A DNA stretch of 23,218 nucleotides from Spirogloea muscicola (taxonomy: Eukaryota > Streptophyta > Zygnematophyceae > Spirogloeales > Spirogloeaceae). Positions 1 through 20,645 of this stretch are shown in pieces (the stretch's first letter is position 1; each line of letters opens with the position of its first letter). The position numbers were made by a program, and so were the translations under genes. The stretch lies in assembly GCA_009602725.1 (NCBI GenBank), contig WELB01000054.1, forward strand, positions 234,269 to 257,486, read 5' to 3'. The notes under the pieces were generated by a model that did not search any database, was not told the DNA's origin, and worked only from the letters and a program-made list of their open reading frames with translations.

Positions 1-3000
1 GCCGCGGGCGCGCTCGCCGGCGGCATCGCCGCCTGCGCCCTGGCCCCCGGCGGCGACCTGCTGGCACTCGTCACCGGCGCGGGCCGCCTGCTGACGCTGA
101 CTGCGCCCGAGCTCGACGTTGTTGCGGAGGTCGACCTCCTCCAGCACGCCGCTGCCGCGCCGTCGGCGGCGACCACTCAGGTGCCCAGCTCTGCCACACC
201 GCCACCGAATCCATGGAGTGCGGTGGCAGCTATATGATGGGAGTAATATAAGAAGTCTGAAATCTATCACCGACAAAGAAGTAATAGAAAAAGTCAAATA
301 TTTCCTCTGGGCCGTCGGTGGCGTTGGCTGATCACGCGCGCTTCAGGTGGCAGCGGACGCGACGGCGGCGGCGGCGACTGTGGCGGAAGCAGACGAGCTG
401 GGTGCCGTGTGCATCAGCTGGCGCGGCGATGGCCGCTTCTTCGCCACGATCTCGGGGCCGGTCGGCGGCCGGCTCGTCCGCGTGTGGGAGGCCGACGGCT
501 GCCTGCTGCACTCGGCCGCTGGCGGCTTACACGGTGCGCCTGTGGCGTGGCAACCCTCAGGCTCGTTGATCGTCGCCGCAGCTGCTGGCGGTGCTGCCCT
601 CTTCTTTGAGCGCAACGGCCTGCAGCGGGCGCCTCCCCTTGACCTGCGGGGGCCCCCCGGCGCTGCCATCGTCGACCTCCAGTGGAGCTGCGACTCGGAG
701 TTGCTTGGCGCTGTGCTGCGTGGTCCTGCCTATGGCTGCATGCAGGCAAGGACCTCCCCTAAGCTCGCACAAACAGGTCGAGGCTACTACTGATCAGGGT
801 ATCCTAGTGTACTGTGTGTGTCTGTGATACTAGTGTGATGTGATGTCTGGTGTTCACTGGTGACACCTAGTCTGAGCATGAGACGGGCTTTTTGGACGAC
901 TGCGTGTGAAGATGTCGATGGACAGTGTATTCAGCTTCCCCCTGCACCATGCACCCCAAATTACAGAACTAGCTAACCCTGGACCTTAGACTCACGAAAC
1001 TGAAGCACCCATGATCTCTCTCTGACCCTGATTGTACGCCTGGCTTGCACACCCTGAACCTCCAAACTCCAAAGAACTTTGGGGTCTCCGGTCTGAGCCT
1101 CACTTCCTTAACGTTTGACTCATTGCGGAGTTTGTTGACTTGCAGGTTTGGCACCGTAGCAACTACCACTGGTACCTCAAAGCGGAGTGGCGGGCAGCGC
1201 CCAGCGATGGCCTACACGTGATGTGGGATGCTGAGCGGCCGCTGCGCCTGATGCTGTGGACAGAGGGCGGGGCAATGCGCCGCGTTGACCTCGCCTGGTC
1301 CTCGGCTGCCGCTGGCTGTGCGTCTGGCACGGCCGCTGTGGTTGACGGCGCTGACGTGCTCGTCACGCCGCTCGCACGTGTCATCGTGCCGCCGCCCATG
1401 GCGCTTGCCCGAACCCATTTTCGTGCACCCGTGCGCTGCTTGGACCTGGTCGCCACTGCGGGGGGCAGCTTGGAGCGGCTCGCAGCGGCCCTGGTGGATG
1501 GCTCGCTGGCGGTCACAGATGTCCTTGTTGACGAAGCTCAGGAGGCTGAGGATGAAGAGCGAGAGGTGGGAATGACGGCGTCCCTCGCCGCTGTGGGGCC
1601 GCTGCACCTTCCAGATGTAGCAGCGGACGAGGCCGGTGAAGTGGTCCACCTTGCGTGGCTCAGCTCGCAAAGGCTCCTGGTTGCTACGGCCTCCATGGCC
1701 GAGGACAGCGGTGGCACGGCTGCGTGGCGCCTTCTCCTGATTGAAGTTGCTCAAGACGTCGGCGGTTGCTGGTCCGGCACATTGGTGGCTCAGGCGGCAA
1801 TGAAAGCGCCGGTAGTGCGCATGGCCCAGGTATGGGACAGCGGCGGGTGCACCGCCGGCGCATTCGTGGAGCTCCAGGGTGGTGCACTAAAACGAATCTC
1901 TGCCGCAGCAAAGGCAGGCCTCCCCTTGCTGGATGCCTCGTCGGCGGTCCTGGCCACCCTGCCGTGCACCTGTTTGCAGCTCAGTGCGGTCGAGCTCGTG
2001 GGAGCGGCCGACAGCGGCGTGGTTGCTGTGGGACTGTCGGAGAGCGGCCAGCTGTACGCTGGGCAGGTTCTTGTTGCTGAGCGTTGCACGTCCTTTGTGC
2101 TGCACCGCGGCGATGCCGCCGCCGTTTTGGTTGCGGATCACAGCAGTGCCCAGGATACAGCCGCCATCGCAGCAGCCACGCTGCCGCACGCCTGGAGTAT
2201 TGTGTACCTGGCCGACGAGCGGCTCCATGTTGTGGACCTTGAGAGCGCGCTCTTCTCGACAGCACCTTGCGCTGGTGCAGAAGCAGAGGTGCAGGTCAGA
2301 GGAGAGAGGGGCCAAGCAAAGCAGCGGCCTGCGGGCACAACGCAGCCGGTGTGGGAGAAGGGTGCGCGCCTGGTGGCTGCTGCTCGCAGTGTCGGCTGTG
2401 CTGCCGCCAGCACTGTCGGCTGTGCCCCTGTGGTCCTGCAGACGCAGCGCGGCAGCCTGGAGACTGTCTTCCCACGATCGCTCGTCCTGCGCGGTATCGC
2501 AGCGCTGCTTCGCGCAGATGACATTGGCCACGCGCTTGCAGCAGCGCGGCGTCACCGCCTGGACCTCAATGTGCTCGTTGACGGCCTCGGTTGGCGGCAG
2601 TTCGTGGAGCGCGGCGCGGCGCACCTTGTTCAGCAGGCCAATTTGGCACATGTCACTGAGCTAGTCTGCGCGCTACGGCAGGACAACATTGTGACCGCCG
2701 GCGGCATCTACGTGGGCCTGCTGCTGCCACAGCCTGGCGACAATGATGATAATGACGGTGCGCCGCCTCCCGAGGGTAAGGTAACGGCAGTGTGCTCAGC
2801 CATCCGGCGCGCGCTAGAGGCAGAGGCGCCGGCCGGCCCAGCGCGCGAGGCATGCATCCTGACCACGCTGGCAAAGAGCGACCCACCAGAGTTGGAGGCG
2901 GCGCTGCATCGGATCAGGCGCCTGAGGGACGAGGAGCTGCTCGGCGACGCTGCTGCAATGCAAAGCTCTGACGGCGACGCTGCCCACTGTTTGCCGGTGC

Positions 3001-5113
3001 CGACCTCCGAGGATGTGGCAGGCAGAGCGGCGAGAGGGACCGTTGCTCCACCAATGGCAGAAGAAAGCGCAACGATCTGCACCAAAATGAGCGCGGAGGC
3101 TGCGCTGCGGCACCTCATGTGGCTTGCAGATGGTGATCGCGTCTTTGACGCCGCACTCGGCATGTATGACTGCCGCCTGGCAGCAATGGTGGCATCACTG
3201 AGCCAGAAGGACCCCGCTGAGATCCTGCCGCTCCTGCGCGAGCTCCAGTCGATGCCGCCGCCGCTCATGCGGGCCGCGATCGACCGTCGGCTCGGCCGGA
3301 TGGAGAGCGCTCTGCGGAACCTCGCCCAGGCCGGCAGCGACCACCTTGAGACCTGCCTGCAGCTCCTGCGCGACCACCCCCGGCTGTTTCCAGCCGCCAT
3401 TGCCATCTTTGCAGCGAGTAGCGGACGCACCGAGCAGGCAGGCGGCAGCAGCAGCGACGCTATGTCCCGGCAGCGTGTGCTGCAAGAGTGGGGCCAGCAC
3501 CTGCAGGAAGCGGAGCAGTTCCGGGAGGCTGCTGGTGCCTTCGTCGCGGCGGGGCTGCCAGACAGCGCGTTGGCGACGTGCCGAGCTGGGGGCTTGTGGA
3601 GGGGCGCCATGCTGCTTGCGAGCCGGCTCCAGATGCCACTGGACGAGCTCCGCGAGCTCCGCAGTGGCCTGCTGAAGGAGCTGCTTCACATGGGCAAGCA
3701 TGAGGAAGCTGCAAGGTCAGTTGTGAGTCATAGCTGGAAAGTACAGGGTCTGTGTTACATCTCGGGTCTGAGGTCCTGATACTTTTATATCAATCAAAGT
3801 GAGTACCTCATATCTGCTGCAATTGTTTTACGAGGCACCACAATATTGCAACGCTTACAGATGCTGTATGGACAGGATGGCGATGGAATACTGCGACGAC
3901 AAGGTGGGCACGGTTGAGCTGCTGGTGCAGGTGCACCACTGGGAGGAGGCGGCCCGCGTTGCCTGCGTGCACGGGCTGGACGAAGTTATGGATGGCATAA
4001 TTCGAGACAATGCCGTGGAAAGGGCGCATGACCTGTGCCGGAGCTGTGTGGAGGCCGTCGAGAAGGTAGGCAGGTATGTAGTGCAGTTTCAGGCACTCCG
4101 GCAGCGCCGCCGCCTGCTGGCGGAGAAGCTGGTGGAGGTGCAAGGCAGCAGAGGCGGAGATGACGGGATGGCAGACGACTCTGCGTCTGAGTCGGGCAGC
4201 AGTGTCAGCAATCTGAGCCTCTACACTCATGGGTGAGGGGCTAACATCCCCCATTGATGTAGTGCCCTCTTGATTCCAAGTTGCTACTCAGCTGCTTGTG
4301 TCTTCTGGTGCATGCTTGCCCTGATGCAAATCGACCCTTCTTGCCGCGTATGGCTTCAGGAGTCGAGCCACGGCGGCTACTTCTGAAACCGGCAGTGCCA
4401 CATCCGGCAAAAGGGCGCACCGCAAGCAGGCCAAGCTGGCAGCACGGGGGTTGTACCGCATTCGTGCAGGAAGGTGCATGCAGCTGTCTTCAATAGCCTA
4501 CTTGTTGCACGTTTTGGGGCTCATTGTGTTCACATATTGTCAAACTCATGTTGTCTTCTTCTTCTGTCTAATTTGTCTAGTTGCACAGCAGTTCTGCGAA
4601 CAGCGGACTGTCTTGCATTTGCTTCCATTCCTAAGAGTGAGTATACTGCCAGGTTCCAGAGTCGATGCAGAGCGAGAAACTTCACCTAGCAATTTCTGTG
4701 CATGGCTGTGGCTGCCCAGCCCTCACGAGGAGCAGGCGCTGGTAGAGCACTTGGTGGGCCTGGCTCCGGGCGCGGCGCTCAAGGAGGAGGTGGCACAGCT
4801 GCTCGACCTCCTCATCCTCCTGCAGGACGAGGACTTGGCAAGAAAGCTCCAGATGGCCCTCAATAAGCTGCTGACTAGCCACCTGGCCGCAGTGGCCAGT
4901 GTGGAGGCCGACCTGGCCACCGACATGACTGCGCCTCTTGCAGCAGGACACCCTGGTAGGGACGTCACTGGCTCCGCTGTGGTGGACAAGAGGAGCTGGC
5001 TGACTCCTCCAAGCAGAGCAGCCGATGTCAGCTGGGCACAGGCCATCCTGGAGCCTGTGCCTGGTGAAGCCGGCCCAGGGAACATGAAGCAGGGCAAGGT
5101 TGCATGGACGTGA
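1..5113 (+). CDS. ELP1: Elongator complex protein 1 (IKI3/IKAP family), 5'-partial, six exons
   Basis: ELP1 is the scaffold of the Elongator complex, which modifies the wobble uridine of tRNAs in the cytoplasm. Exons that keep one open frame: 1-180, 347-745, 1146-3715, 3876-4232, 4360-4473, 4720-5113 (stop TGA 5111-5113). They join to 1337 residues, close to the usual ~1300-1350; the start codon and first blades of the N-terminal beta-propeller lie upstream. Family hallmarks seen: VWHRSNYHWYLKAEW at about residues 194-208, the segment around ETVFPRSLVLRGIAALL and LDLNVLVDG (about 630-670) between propellers and helical solenoid, HHWEEAARVACVHG repeats in the C-terminal solenoid, then a basic stretch KRAHRKQAKLAAR leading into AGSPHEEQALVEHL, a conserved ELP1 C-terminal block in which basic residues contact tRNA. 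Splice sites are GT-AG except intron 2, which is GC-AG. The exon 6 end is the first stop; a further short C-terminal exon cannot be excluded. Confidence 0.95.
746..1145 (+). other. GC-AG intron of ELP1
   Basis: The donor reads CAG|GCAAGG and the acceptor TTGCAG|G. Joining 745 to 1146 keeps the frame and gives an uninterrupted family match across the junction (PAYGCMQ then VWHRSNYHWYLK), with no GT donor nearby that does the same. GC-AG introns with a strong CAG|GCAAG donor are a known minor class. Confidence 0.8.
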
Positions 5114-8982: not shown

Positions 8983-9186
8983 AGAAAGAGCTCGCCCATT
9001 GAGGATAGGGGCTGGAACAGATAGCCAAAAAAGAATGGACAAAGTACAAGAAGGGAGCCAGGGGAAGCGCTAAGAAAAACAAGCACAAGAAGAAACAAAG
9101 CAGCTACGAATGACTCAGTAATTCCTACTGAGCAGCCGCAGATCAGAGATGCTAGGGGCCTGGAAGTGGGTCCCCTGGACAGAGCC
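8983..9186 (-). mobile_element. Inverted 3' end of family A (left arm of a 204-bp inverted repeat)
   Basis: This arm is the reverse complement of 9754-9958 with about seven differences counted by eye. It contains, read on the minus strand, the end of the coding part (THFQAPSISDLRLLSRNY, stop at 9115-9117), the TTAGCGCTT block, the terminal hairpin (partly destroyed here) and GGGCGAGCTCTTTCT. It ends exactly where the plus-oriented endonuclease-domain fragment begins. Confidence 0.85.
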
Positions 9187-9958
9187 CCCCGGCATGGCTG
9201 CGGACGATGGCGAGAGGACGGCGGCCCACGACCGCCTCCGGGACGCGATGCACGGCATCCTGGTGGAGGCTGGCTTCGCGGTGGCAGCGGAGCACTCCGG
9301 CGTCATGCCGCTCCAGGACAGGGCCGACGGCTCCACGCTCGTCGCGTCGACCTGGTGGCCACCCCACAGGCCGGCGGGCCACGTCTGCTTCTGGACGTGG
9401 TGACTACCGACGCATTCGACCGCTCCCACCCAGCCCAGTCTGCCACCAAGGCTGGGTTTGCGGTCGCCTGCGCCGCTCTGGCAAAAGAGATCAAGTACGC
9501 CGACCATCCGCCGGAAGACGAGTCCTTCCCGTTGGCAGTTGACATCCATGGGGCACTGGGCGCTCGGTGGCTTGAGCTACTTAACCAGCTCGCCCGCCAC
9601 GCAATCGCCCGTCGCTTCCATGGTGAACCGGTAGTGTTTCCTGCAGCCGGGTCGCTGGCGCAAGTGTATCGCATGCGCTTGGCCGTCTCGCTGCAGAGGT
9701 CCATGGCCCGTGCGCTGCACCTTCGTGCCGGAAGAGCCCTAGCTGCTGCCTCTGGCTCTGTCCAGGGGACCCACTTCCAGGACCCTAGCATCTCTGATCT
9801 GCGGCTGCTCAGCAGGAATTACTGAGTCATTCGTAGCTGCTTTGTATCTTCTTGTGCTTGTTTTTCTTAGCGCTTCCCCTGGCTCCCTTCTCGTACTTTG
9901 TCCATTCTTTTTTGGGCTGGCTGTTCCAGCCCCTATCCTCAATGGGCGAGCTCTTTCT
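9187..9958 (+). mobile_element. LINE-like fragment, family A, with the longest endonuclease-like domain
   Basis: Longest coding remnant of the island. A first frame gives HDRLRDAMHGILVEAGFAVA, EHSGVMPLQDRADGS; near 9335-9350 the frame shifts and continues RVDLVATPQAGGPRLLLDVV then TTDAFDRSHPAQSATKAGFA, KEIKYADHPPEDESFPLAVD, IHGALGARWLELLNQLARH, MRLAVSLQRSMARALHLRA and the tail SDLRLLSRNY (stop 9823-9825). The D...(about 12)...DVVT followed by K-x-x-K-Y resembles the PD-(D/E)XK restriction-like endonuclease at the C-terminus of R2/NeSL/RandI-type non-LTR retrotransposon proteins; this is inferred from pattern, not a search. The UTR ends with GGGCTGGCTGTTCCAGCCCC and GGGCGAGCTCTTTCT. The frameshift and missing polymerase make it a pseudogene copy. 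Confidence 0.8.
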
Positions 9959-10069
9959 TCTTGATGGCTGAACGAACGCCGGGCTGCCGCGCCAGGCAGC
10001 GGCTGCGGTCAGCCACCCGACAAAGGGAAGGCACGCGCGGTGCACAAAGGGCCTAGCCGAGCCAGTATC

Positions 10070-10449: not shown

Positions 10450-10690
10450 GGCTGGGAGAGGCCAGCCCAGACAAAAAGAAAGGGCTCGCCCATTGAGGAT
10501 GGACAAAAAGCCCTGAACAAAGGGTCAAAGGGGCCAAGGAAAAGCGCTATGGCTAGCACACATGGCATCAAGCAGCTAAGCAACACTTAGTAAAAAGTAA
10601 TACTCAGGAACACTCTGTAACCCCTGCTAAGCAGCCGCAGGTCGGAAAAAATGGGCTCCTGGTAACGGGTCCCCTGGAGGAGGGCAAGCC
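10450..10690 (-). mobile_element. LINE-like 3' end, minus orientation, carrying a 23-bp nested insertion
   Basis: Hairpin GGCTGGGAGAGGCCAGCC at 10450-10468, AAAAGCGCTATGG block, and at about 10615-10690 the reverse complement of SDLRLLSRGY codons with a mutated stop region. Between two copies of GACAAAAAG (10470-10478 and 10502-10510) lies the 3' end of a family A element (CCTCAATGGGCGAGCCCTTT on the minus strand). Confidence 0.7.
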
Positions 10691-11097: not shown

Positions 11098-11310
11098 GGC
11101 TGTGAGAGGCCAGCCCAAAGGAATGGACAAGGTCTGAAGGCAGCAGAGTGTTCAGCGCTTTTCGGCTCTCTCGACCCTTGCTGGCTTGCCTCTCTCGGCC
11201 CTTGCCGGCCTGGCTTCTACAAGGAAAGTGCTCGCCCATAGAGAAGAGGGGCTGGCAAAGCCAGCCTAAAGGAGGAAGGGCTCGCCCATTGAGGAGCCCC
11301 TAAAAACAAT
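11098..11310 (-). repeat. Terminal hairpin repeats (family C then family B), minus orientation
   Basis: GGCTGTGAGAGGCCAGCCC with AAAGGAATGGACAAGGTCT lies at 11098-11137. GTGCTCGCCCATAGAGAAG and the perfect B hairpin GGGGCTGGCAAAGCCAGCC lie at 11228-11267, followed by another truncated CTCGCCCATTGAGG end at 11281-11294. Confidence 0.7.
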
Positions 11311-12975: not shown

Positions 12976-13053
12976 CACATGAGGAAGTGAGCGTAGGGGA
13001 GGCAATGACGACAAGGCAATGGAATGGAATGGGCGAGCCCTCTCTCTCAACAT

Positions 13054-13330
13054 TGGCGGCGGCCTCCGGCTTCCGTCAGGGCGACGTCTTTCCCCCGGCT
13101 AGCTACTCCGACTTGCATCTCCTGACTAGAGGTTACTGAGCGTCCTCTGGCTGTTCCAGTCCCTATCCTCAATGGGCGAGCTCTTTCTTCTGGCTGATGT
13201 TTTCGCCCTAGTCCAAAGGCATGGACTGTAGTGTAGTTCTTTTTCGGCTCCTCTTTCTTTGGCTTGGGATATTGTCCATTCTTTTTGTGCTGGCTTTGCC
13301 AGCCACTCTTCTCTATGGGCGAGCACATTC
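13054..13330 (+). mobile_element. Family B' LINE-like 3' end carrying a 35-bp nested insertion
   Basis: The tail LAAASGFRQGDVFPPASYSD and LHLLTRGY stops at 13135-13137. The UTR contains an insertion at 13154-13188 between two copies of TCTGGCTG, then CCTAGTCCAAAGGCATGGAC, TTTCGGCTCC, TTGGGATATTGTCCATTC, the hairpin GCTGGCTTTGCCAGC and CTATGGGCGAGCAC. A sister copy without the insertion is at 20459-20645 on the minus strand. Confidence 0.8.
13154..13188 (+). mobile_element. 35-bp insertion of the extreme 3' end of family A
   Basis: The insert is TTCCAGTCCCTATCCTCAAT followed by GGGCGAGCTCTTTCT, matching 9926-9958 but for about one base. It is flanked by TCTGGCTG at 13146-13153 and 13189-13196. 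The corresponding unoccupied site is at 20594-20601. Confidence 0.85.
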
Positions 13331-19974: not shown

Positions 19975-20080
19975 CGTCCGTCTGTCTTCCATGGGCATTT
20001 TTGTAAGGCTAGGATTGGCCTCCCATTCAATTTCATGCGCACCGCGCGCCTTCTCTCTTCCATGGGCGAGCACTGTCTTC
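19975..20080 (+). repeat. Family D 3' UTR copy
   Basis: TTTTGTAAGGCTAGGATTGG, CCTCCCATTCAATTTCATGC, GCACCGCGCGCCTTCTCTC and CATGGGCGAGCACTGTCTTC. Most of it is the reverse complement of 7370-7440. The AGGCTA/TGGCCT hairpin is kept with a changed loop. Confidence 0.75.
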
Positions 20081-20458: not shown

Positions 20459-20645
20459 ACAAAGTGCTCGCCCATAGAGAAGAGTGGCTGGCAAAGCCAG
20501 CCCGAAAAGAACGGACAATATCCCAAGCCAAAGAAAGAGGTGCCGAAAAAGAACTGCACTACAGTCCATGCCTGTGGACTAGGACTAAGACATCAGCCAG
20601 AGGACGCTCAGCAACCTCTAGTCAGGAGATGCAAGACTCCCAATA
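20459..20645 (-). mobile_element. Family B' LINE-like 3' end, minus orientation (unoccupied sister of 13054-13330)
   Basis: The terminal hairpin TGGCTGGCAAAGCCAGCCC is at 20485-20503. Going up in coordinate, the UTR matches 13330-13137 in reverse and reaches the tail codons (DLHLLTRGC in place of RGY) at about 20605-20640. At 20594-20601 CAGCCAGA is continuous, where the 13054 copy has the 35-bp insertion. Confidence 0.8.

Follow-up and report, generated by a model that had tools for sequence, protein, structure and literature searches.

The window (the whole stretch of 23,218 nucleotides of Spirogloea muscicola DNA analysed) carries copies of the repeat families A, B and B', and an open frame at 1119-3776 with Pfam matches to domains of ELP1, an elongator subunit. 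The feature under study lies in the ORF end and 3' UTR of a family B' copy (13110-13330, plus strand), which was delimited from the letters, repeat families D8 and D12, inverted repeats I3 and I5 and a search for B' copies. At 13154-13188 (plus strand) this copy is interrupted by 35 bp, TTCCAGTCCCTATCCTCAATGGGCGAGCTCTTTCT, the last bases of family A. An earlier note on this DNA had described the insert as bracketed by a duplicated octamer, and direct reading of the letters gave TCTGGCTG at both 13146-13153 and 13189-13196 (plus strand). The octamer begins 7 nt past the apparent B' stop codon, TGA (13137-13139). The likely donor subfamily is represented by the 3' end of the family A copy at 9914-9960 (plus strand; GGGCTGGCTG-TTCCAG...GAGCTCTTTCTTC), identified from the letters and an RNA fold of 9880-9960.

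In the best ungapped placement 34 of the 35 insert bases equal family A 9924-9958; the earlier estimate of about one differing base was right, and the donor coordinates given with it (9926-9958) are replaced by these. The 10 bases preceding the donor segment are GGGCTGGCTG and those preceding the insert CCTCTGGCTG, with CTGGCTG common to both, and the last 7 nt of the left octamer copy are thus the family A sequence immediately upstream of the inserted part. Microhomology at the 5' junction had been noted before as GGCTG (5 nt); it is present, and extends over 7 nt.

The unoccupied site, one uninterrupted octamer, was read directly on the minus strand of a sister B' copy at 20594-20601, where it had been reported. 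Zero bases separate GGCTG from the ATGT-like sequence after it in any of the 20 B' loci read (L001-L020, with the sister as L001); at L006 and L014 the fuzzy site match landed elsewhere, and the empty site of each was read from its own letters. A search with the empty site as query gave 40 scored matches (sister included) of about 2149 candidates, each with at least 160 of the 187 query bases and continuous across the site, in a sample biased to empty sites by a query that was itself an empty copy. With the filled site as query the window copy was the sole continuous 100% match among 40 scored of 1757 candidates.

These searches bear on the opposite history, in which the 35 bp were ancestral to B' and most copies lost them by deletion between the TCTGGCTG repeats. 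Such repeats could mediate a deletion, and in two places, C27 (75%) and C118 (76%), a diverged alignment spans the insert, as judged from match coordinates only. Against this, the 35 bp are the tail of a different family, and the B' copies sampled, most of which the earlier note would have expected to be filled after a loss, are uninterrupted (20/20 read and 40/40 scored, in a sample that the query biased to empty sites). Loss is very improbable.

Two tail-only inserts besides this one, of 23 and 28 bp, lie in the window. The 23-bp insert (10479-10501, minus strand; locus L140) has a target-site duplication (TSD) of 9 bp, CTTTTTGTC on the minus strand, with one copy past its 3' end (10470-10478) and the other ahead of its 5' end (10502-10510), both from the letters and the TSD scan. 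The 28-bp insert (11271-11298, minus strand; W11289- in the TSD scan) lies within a family B tail, with 3 nt of filler and a TSD of 6 bp, TTTAGG on the minus strand (11265-11270 and 11299-11304); a 6-bp TSD alone is weak, and the interrupted B sequence supports taking these 28 bp as a probable insertion. At two tail-like pieces of the window, 20062-20080 and 13029-13048, the scan gave no TSD of at least 6 bp outside pure C/T sequence.

The donor family

Long open reading frames were found in the family A copies L201 (1558 aa) and L203 (1350 aa); a third copy, L202, is nearly half N. An RVT_1 domain was detected in L201 (E 1.8e-17) and L203 (E 8.4e-16), and the solved-structure matches of L203 at E <= 0.01 were three R2 proteins alone (E 7e-7 to 1e-6). 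To judge from these matches, the reverse transcriptase (RT) of family A is R2-like. Ahead of it stands a C2H2-like pattern, e.g. CQLCQRTFTTRSGRSNHQRTC, with Pfam zinc-finger matches under the cut-off, and past it a Cys-His pattern, CECGERGTEPGELAAHVLRC; the RLE pattern used did not match. The C-terminal region gave no Pfam match (window fragment) and no solved-structure match up to E 10 (C-terminal 330 aa of L203). From the architecture we infer a restriction-like endonuclease. Insertion at one 28S rRNA site, as for R2 proper, was not seen, TSDs and 3' flanks varying by locus.

The RNA fold of the last 81 nt (9880-9960) beat 199 of 200 shuffles (z = -3.17), with a predicted outer stem, GUCCAUU/AAUGGGC, enclosing a hairpin, GGGCUGG/CCAGCCC. 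On this predicted fold the shortest inserts described below would therefore be just the last arm of the structure and the CUUUCUUC end. Family A also has an inverted repeat of 162 bp in the window (9025-9186 and 9754-9915; 98% complementary, 567 bp apart). Double-tail copies, in which ...GGGCGAGCCTTCTTC is followed by TATYCTCAATGGGCGAGC or a near variant, were seen at L096, L122, L139, L153, L207 and L220, and the double-tail junction has 10 exact copies genome-wide; they may reflect either the insertion of one tail into another or a template jump in reverse transcription.

Tail-only copies with one 3' end across the genome

In the genome (153 Mb in 471 contigs) a 20-mer of the family A tail was matched exactly at 2931 places and the terminal 19-mer, ATGGGCGAGCNCTTTCTTC, at 3326; the reversed control of each gave 0. 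Genome-wide pattern searches returned 196 copies of the terminal core without the usual bases 10-14 nt above ATGGG and 84 tails without the bases of the hairpin's 5' arm (reversed-pattern controls 0), counts that are rough both ways, the excluded-base design losing true cases and letting indel tails through. Tails with the full hairpin and the terminal part lost numbered 33, vs 84 and 196 for the 5'-side patterns, in a comparison with 4 excluded bases each in windows that differ in length and base make-up and with small-indel copies counted in all. The 196- and 84-copy patterns themselves demand most of the 3' end, so the 3' asymmetry depends on the count of 33.

Among the first 60 of 100 listed places with the terminal 19-mer, 20 tails had no homology to longer element copies more than 60 nt above ATGGG, which leaves about 80 bp of element at most; L043, L045 and L071 may be diverged rather than truncated, and L039, L068 and L072 were scored long although short by eye. 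By a simpler measure with short references 26 of the 60 tails had less than 45 nt. The hairpin was found within 16 nt of ATGGG in 16/97 copies read from the 196-copy set and 12/40 from the 84-copy set, upper figures obtained by fuzzy match; such hairpin-close copies include real short inserts, and L206 was a false alarm, the hairpin there being part of the target.

The smallest clean inserts are of 17 bp, a floor imposed by the search core, and shorter ones could exist. Two were L087, with a TSD of 12-13 bp, GTTGTTAACGCT, and L206, with the TSD GCCCAAAAAG. The L206 insert interrupts an antisense copy of family B, and the unbroken form of that copy occurs in the window. A 23-bp insert at L123 has a 13-bp TSD, CTATGCTAAGGGG, and L156 a 19-bp TSD, TCTTTCAATTTAAGGGAAT.

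A scan of the genome for family A tails flanked by direct repeats, which the earlier note had proposed, was made with the TSD taken as the longest stretch shared without mismatch by the two flanks, the 5' one ending close to the first base of the element and the 3' one beginning at most 16 nt after ...CTT. Pure C/T matches were excluded, 97/196 and 40/84 copies were read, and the same measure on mispaired loci served as control. A TSD of at least 7 bp was found in 20/97 copies vs 3.5% of 2883 mispaired pairs (p 1.9e-10), and one of at least 8 bp in 17/97 vs 1.35% (p 2.3e-14); at a threshold of at least 6 bp the figures were 30/97 and 7.6%. With the 16 hairpin-bearing copies removed, TSDs of at least 7 bp remained in 17/81. 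The signal in the hairpin-cut set was weak (at least 7 bp in 5/40 vs 4.4%, p 0.03; at least 10 bp in 3/40 vs 0.5%). An initial, less strict test that kept C/T repeats gave no excess for longer tails (at least 7 bp in 2/34 vs 4.7%), 17 of these 34 having matched the whole 90-nt reference, with their true 5' end outside the stretch compared, and a small one for 26 shorter tails (4/26 vs 5.4%). Because TSDs of at least 7 bp occur in just 20/97 copies (30/97 at 6 bp or more), most tail-only copies are unproven as insertions, and may be decayed, inserted with no TSD, of other origin, or tails with indels. Tail-only insertion is not a one-off, and the 35 bp are most likely one case of a genome-wide class.

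Chance drift or conversion of B' into this sequence, with no insertion at all, is hardly credible beside the 34/35 identity to family A, the exact 8-bp duplication and a genome-wide class of the same anatomy; no evidence favouring it was found.

The 5' junctions were scanned in 141 loci, i.e. the 97 and 40 copies read and 4 window sites. TSDs of at least 7 bp were present in 26, of which 8 had 5' filler and 18 had none. Target and element overlapped by at least 2 nt in 12 of the 18 no-filler loci, where 2000 permutations of targets and cut points gave 2.6 such loci on average and never more than 7, and the suggestion that the 5' end was joined by annealing was borne out as plausible. The overlaps of 9-16 nt at L163, L162, L190 and L198 arise within the element and were not trusted; when the doubtful L163 was dropped, 11 of 17 no-filler loci overlapped by at least 2 nt. 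The 7-nt CTGGCTG of the window locus is larger than the overlap at every other trusted junction. At L150, L145, L120 and L100 the filler duplicates target sequence close by or the end of the cDNA, which would fit joining that slipped and started again.

Fillers that copy nearby target sequence, as at L150, L145 and L120, would also be in keeping with microhomology-driven template switching in DNA repair or replication, by which 35 bp of an A tail were copied and synthesis returned 8 bp upstream. An example template, the tail at 9924-9958, lies in the same orientation 3.2 kb away, and the switch would have had 7 nt of microhomology at entry and about 3 nt (TCT) at return. Template switching predicts neither a common end of the inserts at the 3' terminus of the element throughout the genome nor TSDs of up to 19-20 bp, and 3'-truncated pieces are the fewer (33). 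We consider it quite improbable as the source of the insert.

The idea that cuts concentrate at the foot of the tail hairpin, where the RT would pause, was dropped as unsupported. Above ATGGG, the exact match in the 100 copies listed ranged from 0 to 9 nt and was most often 9 nt long (24/100). The hypothesis was given up because 10 of these 24 are ambiguous, with TTCTTC directly before TAT and a position-9 C that may be target-derived, and because the pattern counts (196, 84, 11 and 15) are not comparable as rates, their excluded bases differing in a C/T-rich flank.

Origin and meaning of the insert

At the window locus the insert ends at the element's 3' terminus, is flanked by an 8-bp TSD and has an empty site in related copies, all as in target-primed reverse transcription (TPRT). 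The 35 bp probably represent a LINE insertion of the 3' tail alone, a very short cDNA having been captured in the course of TPRT. An extremely 5'-truncated target-primed insertion was also the earlier interpretation, and both the fit of this locus and the genome-wide excess of TSDs over mispaired controls support it.

We infer an RNA intermediate, a nick and the following order of events. In the B' 3' UTR, the family A protein would nick the bottom strand where TCTGGCTG begins, and the freed 3' end would prime reverse transcription at the 3' terminus of the A RNA (...CUUUCUUC). After about 35-42 nt, the cDNA of the hairpin arm GGGCTGGCTG would anneal through CTGGCTG to the displaced overhang TCTGGCTG. 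Annealing would stop reverse transcription, fix the 5' junction and prime the second strand, and the 8-bp duplication would remain. The duplication, the 5' junction and the length of the insert would all follow from the capture of nascent cDNA by this overhang once the complementary stretch had been copied.

The octamer of other B' copies may bear A insertions of greater length. In the filled-site search, A tails were joined to the same B' downstream sequence in C60, C416, C23, C2, C35 and C67 (query 38-139 or 38-141, 82-94%). In C2 and C23 the upstream B' match ends at the octamer, 98 and 211 bp ahead of the downstream match: C2 matched query 15-44 and then 38-139, which leaves about 140 bp of A, and C23 matched 1-44 and then 38-141, which leaves about 250 bp, both by match coordinates only. 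At C109 the window's 5' junction is present (query 1-81, 91%), with about 110 bp extra before B' resumes. Candidate A insertions of differing length at or near the octamer past the B' stop were placed, by match coordinates, at C2:356667-356893, C23:907452-907815, C60:491556-491752 and C109:244537-244934. Among 229 distinct tails in the loci read, the window tail alone precedes TCTGGCTGATG; those of L109 and L199 precede TCTGGCT. The octamer just past the B' stop codon is a possible favoured target of family A, and the filled-site matches in these other places would fit either recurrent insertion at such a site or relatedness among the copies.

The same pieces could be read as stages of shortening, in which a longer A insertion at the octamer was later reduced to 35 bp by deletion between the CTGGCTG of the target and that of the hairpin arm. 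Such a deletion would leave exactly the 7 nt common at the 5' junction, and longer A pieces do appear in the same B' bracket (about 140 bp in C2 and 250 bp in C23, by match coordinates), with C109 having the window's 5' junction and about 110 bp more. Yet the lengths in C2 and C23 differ, and a common ancestor would need several deletions sharing one left edge, whereas no deletion is needed if the insertions were independent and each was cut at a 5' point of its own. Nor does shortening explain the class, as at L087, L123, L156 and L206 the TSD is 10-19 bp long and the overlap just 0-2 nt. Later shortening is unlikely, and capture of a short cDNA by TPRT is preferred.

Truncated R2 and R1 elements in Drosophila 28S genes are described as products of TPRT whose 3' end is constant and whose 5' end varies; their R2 junctions mostly have 1-5 bases assignable to either target or element, others having non-templated or duplicated target bases, and the authors proposed that the cDNA anneals to the top strand once this has been cleaved (PMC2718515). 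Family A resembles truncated Drosophila R2 in its 5' junction pattern and fixed 3' end, and differs from R2, with its one 28S site, in varied targets and TSDs of about 6-20 bp; no inserts of 17-35 bp are given for R2 or R1 in the portion of that report used here (PMC2718515). For ZfL2-1 and Nimb-2_DR, truncated inserts had 5' junctions with microhomology or with additional nucleotides, and annealing of a target overhang to nascent LINE DNA was proposed as the source of truncated copies (PMC4245944). The junction classes of family A, with overlap, filler and few blunt ends, are like theirs, although those elements belong to other LINE clades and were studied in cultured cells, and L2-clade TSDs are 3-5 bp (PMC4245944). 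In Blattella, R2-like elements occur outside the 28S site, as family A inserts do, and truncated R2 copies are common; truncation was studied there within 456 bp of the R2 5' end, whereas the family A case concerns the extreme 3' tail (PMC7650587). The present genome has LINE copies nested within LINE copies, as reported for copies of the Zepp LINE in the green alga Coccomyxa (PMC3446292).

In its R2-like RT and CTTTCTTC end, family A differs from Zepp, which is L1-like and carries poly(A). That LINE copies can be 5'-truncated and joined by microhomology is known already, and tail-only inserts are the extreme end of that known process; what seems unusual here is the shortness and apparent commonness of the inserts. 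A literature search, short of a full review and drawing on parts of the reports, found no R2-like LINE for which TPRT inserts of 17-35 bp are described as a class.

More tentatively, tail-only integration may be a major product of this R2-like LINE, cDNA of about 17 nt being capturable before the RT has left the structured 3' end of the RNA. Each nick by family A would then end as a longer copy or as a tag of 17-80 bp, and tags would seed targets and microhomologies for more insertions, including repeated hits past the B' stop. Should the recurrent use of the B' octamer be real, an R2-like element would partly target the 3' UTR of another LINE.

Inserts of 17-35 bp fall under the length cut-offs of most repeat annotation, and counts of LINE integrations, and the range of their lengths, may therefore be underestimated. 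Thousands of copies with one exact terminal core would permit measurement of how early cDNA is captured and how 5' junctions form, and the same genome would show how many target nicks end as minimal scars. The scar in the B' 3' UTR would indicate how short a retrotransposon insertion can be and yet keep its usual TSD.
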